Part shown: positions 4,469 through 40,085 of the stretch, in pieces | Position numbering within the stretch: position 1 is the first letter of the stretch | How the letters are laid out: each line of letters starts with the position of its first letter | NCBI GenBank assembly: GCA_903913865.1 | Contig: CAIWMU010000226.1 | Coordinates: forward strand, 1 to 64,000 | Origin: an uncultured Verrucomicrobia subdivision 3 bacterium | Lineage (GTDB): Bacteria > Verrucomicrobiota > Verrucomicrobiia > Limisphaerales > UBA8199 | Reading direction: 5' to 3' | Length of the DNA stretch: 64,000 bases | Program-made: the position numbers and the translations under genes | The notes under the pieces: generated by a model | The model's input: the letters and a program-made list of their open reading frames with translations, nothing else | The model's database searches: none | What the model was told of the DNA's origin: nothing

Positions 4469-4538
4469 GGGGTCAGTCCTCATCTTTTTGTGTGCCCCGT
4501 GCGGGACGCACTTTACAAAAAGTGACCGGACTGACCCC
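4469..4538. repeat. REP-like imperfect palindrome GGGGTCAGTCCTCA...GGACTGACCCC
   Basis: Ends are GGGGTCAGTCC and GGACTGACCCC (exact reverse complements), inner CTTTTTG/CAAAAAG, centre CCCGTGCGGG. Confidence 0.7.
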
Positions 4539-12588: not shown

Positions 12589-13071
12589 CTACCCGCCACC
12601 CCGCTGCGCCAGGATCAAATCCCGGATTCCCTTGGGATCGGGAATGTTGCTGATCTGTTCCGCAGCATCCACTGTTGCGGCGGTGGAGAGGGTCAGGTCC
12701 CCGATCCCAAGCATCCGTTGTAGAAAATTTTGGTCGATATCAATGGAGCGTATATCCCGGGGATTGTAATCCAGGTAACACTTCGAGAACAGCCCACGCT
12801 CAAGGGTGATGCGCCGGGGTCTGATGCGCAGCACCGTGGAGGCCCGGCTGAAGTAGGCCATGATGGGCGGCACGATCAGGAAGAAAAAGAACAGGTGCCC
12901 GAAGTAACCCCACCATGAGGGTCGTACTTCCGCCAAAAGATCACCAGCCCCCCCTTCGCTCACTGCCGCTCCGCCACCCGATTTCTCGGCCACAGGGTAT
13001 CCGCACTGTGGGCATGCGCGGGCCAGATTTGAAACCTGCTTCCCGCATTCAGGACAGTCAATAAGAGCCAT
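12589..13071 (-). CDS. Zinc-ribbon plus bacterial PH-domain membrane protein
   Basis: MALIDCPECGKQVSNLARACPQCGYPV; TM segment YFGHLFFFFLIVPPIMAYF; RIRPRRITLERGLFSKCYLDYNPRDIRSIDIDQNFLQRMLGIGDLTLSTA (bPH_2-like). Confidence 0.85.
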   Translation of the reverse strand: MALIDCPECGKQVSNLARACPQCGYPVAEKSGGGAAVSEGGAGDLLAEVRPSWWGYFGHLFFFFLIVPPIMAYFSRASTVLRIRPRRITLERGLFSKCYLDYNPRDIRSIDIDQNFLQRMLGIGDLTLSTAATVDAAEQISNIPDPKGIRDLILAQRGGG

Positions 13072-37766: not shown

Positions 37767-40085
37767 ATGAGTGACACAGAGAATAAATCTGCAGCACCCG
37801 AGCCATGTCCCGCACCGGCTTCCCCCCTCCGGATGGGGATCGCAACCCTGCTGATCTCACTCCTGCTGGCTGCGGGAACCTTCCTTACCTATCTCCCCGC
37901 CCTGAAGTTCGATTTCGTCAACTATGACGACACCGATTACGTGACACAAAACCCCAATGTCACGTCGGGGCTCTCGACTACGAACCTCGTTTGGGCATTC
38001 ACCACCGGCCATGCCGGCAACTGGCATCCAATCACCTGGATCAGCCATCAGGCGGATGCCTCAGCCTTTGGCTTGAACCCCGGGGGGCACCACCTCACCA
38101 ATGTCCTGTTCCATACCGCAAATACACTTCTGCTGTTCCTCCTGCTCCGATCCCTGACAGGATCGCTCTGGCGCAGCATGCTCGTCGCGGCTCTCTTTGC
38201 TCTCCACCCGGCACATGTCGAATCAGTGGCTTGGATCTCTGAACGGAAGGATGTTCTCAGCGCCTTCTTTGGTCTTCTCACGCTCATGGCCTACGCGCGG
38301 GCGTCCCGCTTCATGGATACCAGGAGCACAACCCCCTCCCAAATTCAATGGCTCCACCGGTCCATTATTCCCCCCACGCTGTTCCTCGCCCTGGGGCTCA
38401 TGGCAAAGCCGATGCTCGTGACACTGCCCTTCGTCATGTTGCTGCTGGATTACTGGCCGCTTGACCGGCGGCGGACTCCCTGGAAACGGCTGATCCTGGA
38501 AAAGTGGCCCCTCTTCGGATTGATCACAGCATCTTCGGTGGTGACCTTCATCGTTCAGAAACAGGGCGGGGCCGTCCAAACCCTCAGAGATTTATCCCTC
38601 GCAGGCCGCCTGGAAAACGCCGTCATCTCCTACTCACGCTACCTCGCGAAAGCCTTCTGGCCCGCGAACCTCGCCACCCCTTATCCCCACCCGGGAACCT
38701 GGCCTTGGACACAAATCCTCTTCTCCTGCCTGATCCTCGTCTCCATAAGCCTCCTGGCATGGAGATACCGGCGCAGCCAACCCTCAATCATCGTCGGCTG
38801 GCTCTGGTTCCTGGGCATGCTCATACCGGTGCTCGGCCTCATCCAGGTAGGTGCGCAGTCCATGGCCGACCGCTACACCTACCTGCCCTACATCGGCATC
38901 TTCATCGCCCTCTGCTACACCAAAAGGGGTCAGTCCTCACTATTGACAGTGACCCCAACCTCAAGCAACCCGTCCCCCCTCCAATCCCCGCTCAACCTCA
39001 CACTCTGCGGGGTCGCCATAGTCGCTCTGGGCGCCCTGACACTCACTTCCAGACAACAACTGCGGGTCTGGCAGGACAGCGGAACCCTCTTCACCCACTC
39101 CATCTCCGTGACCCGCAGCAACTGGATTGCCTGGTATAACCTTGGCTGGCATCTGGACACGCATGGCCAGACCGAAGAAGCGGTCAAGTGCTACCGGAAG
39201 GCGCTGGAAATTGATCCCCTGTTCCCCGATCCCATTAACAATCTGGGCTGCGCTCTGGCCTCCCTCAAACGCTACGAAGAGGCGATTCCCTGCTTTGAGT
39301 CGGCCTTGAAACTCAAACCAACCTCCCTGGAGGTGCAGCTCAATATCGCGAATGCCCTGAAGGAACTGGGAAGAAACGATGAGGCAACCGCCCGCTACCG
39401 CCTTGTGCTTGGCAGTCGCCCCGATCACCCGGCAGCGTTGATGAACCTCGGCAGCCTGCTTTCCCGCCAGAACCAATTTGCCGAGGCGATCCCGATTCTT
39501 GAAAAATCGCTTGCAGCCAACCCATCTCAGCCGATTGTTCATTACAACCTCGCCAACGCTCTTGCAAAGATGCGTCGGATCCCCGAAGCCATCACCCATT
39601 ACGAGCGGGCTGTGGCGTTGAAGGATGACTACTCCGAAGCGCGGCATGATCTGGGGATCACCTATGCCCGGGCCGGCAGGCTTGAGGACGCGGCAAAAGT
39701 CCTGCGGGATGCCGTTGCTCGGGAACCTCGCAACGCCACCGTGCGCGTTGCATATGGTCGAGTCCTGGCGGCACAGCAGAAGACGGAATCCGCAGTCATC
39801 CTTTTCAAGGAAGCCGTTCAATTGGCTCCGGAGAACATCGAAGCCCACGCCAACCTCGGAACACTGCTGGCTATGCAGGGTGATCTGGAAGCTGCGGTGA
39901 CGCACCTGGGGACCGCACTGCGCGCCCGCCCTGATGATCCCGTGGCACAACTCAATCTCGCGAGAGCCTTGGCAGCCAGTGGAAAAAAGAGAGAGGCCAT
40001 CCCGCATCTTGAAGAAGTTCTGCGCCTTCGCCCGGGGCATCCCCAGGCCACAGAGGAACTCCGAAAACTTCAAGCCAGCCCATAG
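37767..40085 (+). CDS. Multi-TM (TMTC/O-mannosyltransferase-like) protein with C-terminal TPR repeats
   Basis: LPALKFDFVNYDDTDYVTQNPNV, NWHPITWISHQADASAFGLNPGGHHLTNVLFHTANTLLLF; ALHPAHVESVAWISERKDVLS; many TPR units. Confidence 0.9.
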   Translation: MSDTENKSAAPEPCPAPASPLRMGIATLLISLLLAAGTFLTYLPALKFDFVNYDDTDYVTQNPNVTSGLSTTNLVWAFTTGHAGNWHPITWISHQADASAFGLNPGGHHLTNVLFHTANTLLLFLLLRSLTGSLWRSMLVAALFALHPAHVESVAWISERKDVLSAFFGLLTLMAYARASRFMDTRSTTPSQIQWLHRSIIPPTLFLALGLMAKPMLVTLPFVMLLLDYWPLDRRRTPWKRLILEKWPLFGLITASSVVTFIVQKQGGAVQTLRDLSLAGRLENAVISYSRYLAKAFWPANLATPYPHPGTWPWTQILFSCLILVSISLLAWRYRRSQPSIIVGWLWFLGMLIPVLGLIQVGAQSMADRYTYLPYIGIFIALCYTKRGQSSLLTVTPTSSNPSPLQSPLNLTLCGVAIVALGALTLTSRQQLRVWQDSGTLFTHSISVTRSNWIAWYNLGWHLDTHGQTEEAVKCYRKALEIDPLFPDPINNLGCALASLKRYEEAIPCFESALKLKPTSLEVQLNIANALKELGRNDEATARYRLVLGSRPDHPAALMNLGSLLSRQNQFAEAIPILEKSLAANPSQPIVHYNLANALAKMRRIPEAITHYERAVALKDDYSEARHDLGITYARAGRLEDAAKVLRDAVAREPRNATVRVAYGRVLAAQQKTESAVILFKEAVQLAPENIEAHANLGTLLAMQGDLEAAVTHLGTALRARPDDPVAQLNLARALAASGKKREAIPHLEEVLRLRPGHPQATEELRKLQASP
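38926..38956. repeat. REP-like palindrome inside the TMTC/TPR CDS
   Basis: GGGGTCAGTCCTCACTATTGACAGTGACCCC; first 14 nt identical to the 4469 element. Confidence 0.7.

Follow-up and report, generated by a model that had tools for sequence, protein, structure and literature searches.

The question raised by this locus is how a short sequence that is dispersed over a verrucomicrobial genome came to lie inside an intact gene for a membrane protein, and what kind of repeat it represents. The gene lies in the window, by which we mean the whole analysed stretch of 64,000 nt, and a preliminary description had pointed to a 31-mer at 38926-38956, within the open reading frame 37767-40085 (772 aa), as a REP-like palindrome acquired in frame. 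The sequence, the coordinates, the frame and the host gene are as given there, and the codons across the site read K386 R G Q S S L L T V395 T P T398. The features discussed below are collected in Table 1.

Table 1. Positions of the repeat, its host gene and related elements (window coordinates unless a contig is named).
Feature	Position	Strand	Reading or remark	Basis
Host gene: membrane domain, likely of GT-C fold (TMTC-like), aa 1-435; TPR repeats, aa 450-770	37767..40085	+	772 aa, intact	
AAAA 5' of the TIR	38922..38925	+	guide/target or element edge	flank count over 56 copies
Solo TIR repeat unit GGGGTCAGTCCTCACTATTGACAGT	38926..38950	+	read in frame as (K)RGQSSLLTV, codons 386-395	
Tail GACCCCAACC, completing the apparent palindrome	38951..38960	+	older gene sequence or decayed element tail	
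39-nt segment, codons 386-398 (KRGQSSLLTVTPT)	38922..38960	+	likely minimal inserted segment	inferred
Class B intergenic hairpin (GGGGTCAGTCCTCATCTTTTTGTG...CACTTTACAAAAAGTGACCGGACTGACCCC)	4469..4538	+	only the first 14 nt in common with the TIR	
Ends of the C159 element	G000:C159 11987-12011, 13075-13099	+, -	Y1_Tnp 12675-13010 between	

The host genome (6.27 Mb, 267 contigs) contains 73 exact copies of the first 14 nt of the element, and none of the reversed control pattern; the 81 nt around the site gave 51 other BLAST matches (E down to 7e-11), with 34 of 34 positions identical in the best one. When aligned, the 14-mer copies fall into two classes. Class A consists of AAAA and GGGGTCAGTCCTCACTWTTGACAGT, followed either by unrelated sequence or by a second, inverted unit, which then results in a perfect palindrome of 51 nt. 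Window positions 38922-38950 are a perfect copy of this genome-wide repeat (A4 + GGGGTCAGTCCTCACTWTTGACAGT), equal to other copies over 29-34 nt with no mismatch, and the 25-mer GGGGTCAGTCCTCACTWTTGACAGT itself is found 59 times with up to 3 mismatches (48 times exactly; reversed control, none). Among the 56 class A copies with readable flanks, 46 are solo and five are full head-to-head palindromes; the AAAA flank is common to 25, with A in 37-51 of the 56 at each position. A real dispersed repeat is therefore present, but the 31-nt palindrome had to be rejected as its unit, as the solo copies end at ACAGT, with unrelated sequence beyond. The GACCCC at 38951-38956 is tail or flank and no conserved part of the family—after ACAGT, most solo copies go on with TG..., and GA... 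is seen in only 7 of 46—and the apparent 31-nt palindrome exists because GACCCC comes right after the unit. By itself, the 25-mer hardly folds (-1.1 kcal/mol, DNA parameters), and the family's true palindrome is the 51-nt form, in which two units meet head to head (-28.3 kcal/mol).

Class B comprises hairpins of 52-70 nt with GAGCGAAT/TTCGCGGG flanks and includes the 4469 element, to which the preliminary description had related the intragenic copy. This kinship extends to the first 14 nt; a common identity was rejected, as the 4469 element is a hairpin of another class, with other flanks (GAGCGAAT...TTCGCGGGAAATCGGTCAACGC at 4469-4538, with about 20 copies in the genome). Outside the host genome, the 14-mer is absent from most of the order; the congener has 15 copies of the 25-mer, mostly GGTGTCAG..., and G006 has four weak ones. 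G006 also carries 126 exact copies of the 14-mer, which points to an abundant different repeat with an identical start.

Of the eight Y1_Tnp genes in the genome, the one at C159 has class A units on either side, inverted to each other, and both ends of this element (G000:C159:11987-13099) are identical to the unit in the window. The encoded protein has 310 aa, with an HxH motif and a YVHLNP tyrosine motif, and GGGGTCAG matches the TIRYT TIR consensus GGGGWSAS. In TIRtrons (TIRYT), according to Di Nocera et al. (2013, PMC3733652), TIRs of this consensus flank a tyrosine transposase gene and are also dispersed as repeats. Judged by sequence, the repeat is thus the TIR of a resident IS200-like (HUH/Y1) transposase element, C159, of the TIRtron kind, and the C159 transposase may well act on it. 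This element (L088, about 1.1 kb) is likely autonomous, and a second, GGTGTCAGTCCTCACTTTTT-like partial end is seen just beyond its right end.

With genes called by a simple codon-model gene caller and a CDS interior defined as more than 60 nt from an edge, the window copy is the only one among 57 class A copies that lies in a CDS interior, compared with 72% of control positions drawn at random from these loci. Other copies within long open reading frames were considered and rejected, as most of these frames look spurious or the copy is at a gene edge. Eight further class A copies touch gene edges. At C252 (L105 2560-2640; G000:C252:16783-16833), a full 51-nt TIR palindrome lies between convergent genes for an ABC transporter (TOBE domain) and a transglutaminase, and it provides both of them with a C-terminal KGSVLTIDS(Y/N)CQ and a stop codon. 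In L001, L100, L101, L102 and L108 (G000:C7, C234, C240, C266), the TIR is located just upstream of genes in reverse sense, with a GTG start that reads VRTDPF or VRTDPK in frame with the downstream protein, possibly a repeat-supplied start codon; in L001, L100 and L101 this sequence directly precedes a hydrophobic N-terminus.

In the host protein, the TPRs of the C-terminal half are clear from TPR family matches, and sequence searches gave no Pfam or NCBIfam family and no PDB match for the membrane domain. An AlphaFold model based on 55 sequences (pLDDT 88.6, pTM 0.90) was compared by Foldseek, and the best 19 PDB matches are all GT-C glycosyltransferases or complexes that contain one, with E-values from 1.1e-3 upward and TM-scores up to 0.49, the best folds being those of Pmt4, STT3, ArnT and PglB. 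The model thus suggests that the membrane half is likely GT-C/TMTC-like. The repeat is located in loop 3, between transmembrane helices that end near aa 384 and start near aa 408, and a GT-C topology would place this loop in the cytoplasm. Residues 388-402, which overlap the repeat-encoded stretch, form the only segment of at least three residues with a pLDDT below 50, to which the low alignment depth at this position contributes.

Of 221 homologues, 149 have a loop 3 segment with the modal length of 30 aa, against 43 aa in the window. This excess of 13 aa equals 39 nt, that is A4 plus 25 plus 10 nt, a multiple of three, and the 39-nt segment is on this account the likely minimal insert. KRGQSSLLTV was found in no aligned homologue, and conservation of the segment at protein level without the DNA palindrome, which would have spoken against an insertion, was thus not seen. 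An in-frame acquisition is indicated by a perfect copy of a dispersed repeat, with the frame and both flanks intact, in a loop longer than the family mode and with a segment that is missing from homologues. The expectation that relatives would lack 10-15 aa at this position agrees with the modal loop length of the family and with the paralogue C54 of the same genome, whose loop has this length, but not with the congener. The only congeneric orthologue (G001, filed as Verrucomicrobia subdivision 3 bacterium UBA693, Limisphaerales) is full-length, 63-65% identical and has the same upstream neighbour, a pseudouridine synthase; its loop lacks the TIR repeat, is unrelated in sequence, and is 4 aa longer than that of the window. 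We therefore had to reject it as a clean empty site, and because of this longer loop without the repeat, loop length by itself is no proof of insertion; the repeat may possibly have replaced older loop sequence. The loop DNA of G001 was not found as a repeat in either genome, and the long loop of L211, considered as a further repeat, was rejected since it is not repeated in the genome of L211. G001 has GGACCCCAACC at the position aligned to the tail 38951-38960, and the right end of the C159 element is GAACCCCCAAC; the tail could be gene sequence that was present beforehand, as the comparison with G001 would imply, or a decayed element tail, and what the tail shares with GGACCCCAACC could reflect ancestry or chance.

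Among the homologues, length differences of at least 6 aa occur almost exclusively in three loops, which follow residues ~187, ~236 and ~395 and would all be cytoplasmic on the GT-C topology. Despite differing inserts, all 249 homologue pairs tested keep the frame over loop 3, as do 246 of 248 over loops 1 and 2, in a sample that came from a protein search and thus favours intact genes. Short-tandem-repeat DNA makes up 18.8, 9.3 and 4.9% of loops 1, 2 and 3, respectively, versus 0.32% elsewhere in the domain (221 homologues). In many homologues (L236-L252, G009 paralogues), loops 1 and 2 are translated heptamer arrays, which read RMQNAECRMQNAE from CAGAATG, FHVSRFTFHVSRFT from TTTCACG and KSEIRNPKSEIRNPK from AAATCCG. 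Phase variation by these heptamers was rejected, as all but 2 of 497 junctions keep the frame. The CAGAATG array has 74 matches throughout the G009 genome and none in the genome of the window. In exactly loop 3, eight paralogues of G009 carry an unrelated GAGCGTGAGGAGCGT...CACGCTCCACGC hairpin (also written GGCGTGGAGCGTGAGGAGCGT...CACGCTCCACGC), and two others a AAATCCGAAATCC-type (AAATCCG-type) repeat. A single insertion of this hairpin followed by gene duplication was rejected, since the tree needs five changes, at least four of them forced by well-supported branches, which points to repeated gain and loss or to gene conversion. A literature search on heptamer repeats in Verrucomicrobia or on loop insertions returned nothing relevant. 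We tentatively suggest—without considering it the likelier case—that in this verrucomicrobial GT-C/TPR family the presumably cytoplasmic loops might be a general landing pad, which unrelated repeats (the TIR, the GAGCGTGAGGAGCGT hairpin, CAGAATG, TTTCACG, AAATCCG) enter in frame far more often than they enter other coding DNA, and that loop diversity might be selected.

Taken together, positions 38922-38950 are very probably a solo TIR of a resident Y1 element of the TIRtron kind that entered a permissive loop in frame as a recent and tolerated insertion, with recency suggested because the copy matches perfectly. The TIRYT transposase at C159 or one of its relatives would be the most likely agent that mobilised the TIR into the gene. 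The insert would have been in frame with its 39 nt, and of the six frames of the unit, two forward ones and one reverse one are open; it would have survived as it fell into a loop, presumably cytoplasmic, that tolerates extra residues and that in relatives appears to have received other repeats again and again. The KRGQSSLLTV peptide is probably a neutral, disordered addition. That its residues have been domesticated and are selected for a role in the loop, such as regulation or interaction, is a rather remote prospect: the frame is kept and loops of this family repeatedly hold repeat-encoded peptides, but the peptide itself is private to this protein, the same loop holds inserts of unrelated sequence in relatives, and the homologues at modal length do without any.

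How the repeat got there could also be explained by gene conversion or template switching that overwrote old loop DNA, with no net insertion. The congener, with a loop that is as long or longer and with GGACCCCAACC aligned right after the repeat, speaks for this option, but the shorter family mode and paralogue C54 with its modal length speak against it, and we consider it unlikely. An in-frame insertion of a classical REP/REPIN, a GTAG-tagged hairpin mobilised by a RAYT, appears distinctly less likely still. Such a repeat would also be dispersed, mostly intergenic, Y1-transposase-associated and in part present as inverted doublets; however, AAAA takes the place of the GTAG tag, the unit by itself forms no hairpin, and the 46 solo copies, against five full palindromes, are near-identical, whereas REPIN singlets have been reported as the decayed form (PMC3116915 and PMC3733652). 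The preliminary description was thus right about the in-frame acquisition of a dispersed repeat but not about a REP in the GTAG/RAYT sense. A chance match can be dismissed for practical purposes: a 10-nt core with one mismatch would, taken alone, lack significance in the window, but the exact matches of 29-34 nt, their E-values and the empty reversed-pattern control leave virtually no room for it.

Compared with known systems, the closest relationship is to the TIRtron TIRs (PMC3733652): in both cases, inverted repeats of the GGGGWSAS type flank a HUH/Y1 transposase gene, and moderately abundant singlets and dimers are dispersed. In the excerpts of that paper, however, intragenic cases are given for GTAG and CGTC REPs, which are listed separately as in-frame repeats with most cases in Opitutus terrae—a verrucomicrobium—and Rickettsia conorii, and a TIR inside a gene is not described there. 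These intragenic REPs resemble our case as short dispersed repeats in frame within an open reading frame that add about 10-30 aa, but the window copy has no GTAG or CGTC tag, is a single unit, and lies in a membrane-protein loop instead of DNA-repair genes. With REPINs (Bertels and Rainey, 2011, PMC3116915), the repeat shares the link to Y1 transposases and the existence of inverted doublets, here as 51-nt perfect palindromes, whereas in the present family singlets dominate and are well conserved, and the doublet halves have no spacer beyond 1 nt; the GTAG-REP/REPIN label was rejected for the AAAA-type flank, the weak folding of the 25-mer and the mainly solo occurrence. The RPEs of Rickettsia (PMC10969869), which had been named as a parallel, are likewise selfish repeat DNA in frame within functional genes, but they are palindromic, about 150 bp long, have a conserved peptide and are often found in genes; an identity with RPEs was rejected, as our repeat has 25 nt, is not palindromic and is intragenic once among 57 copies. 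The host protein resembles TMTC/GT-C O-mannosyltransferase-like proteins with TPRs in its GT-C-like fold by structure search, an Asp-Asp in the first outer loop and C-terminal TPRs, and differs from them in that its membrane part has no sequence match. In-frame REP and RPE insertions are already known, and the event in the window is a further example of such insertions, which extends them to a transposon end: beyond REP and RPE hairpins, this kind of sequence can enter a gene in frame as well. What might be new to specialists is the pattern in which the predicted cytoplasmic loops of one membrane-protein family gather unrelated repeats in frame, and such a family with repeat-absorbing loops would make the gain of gene segments from selfish repeats testable with many natural replicates.
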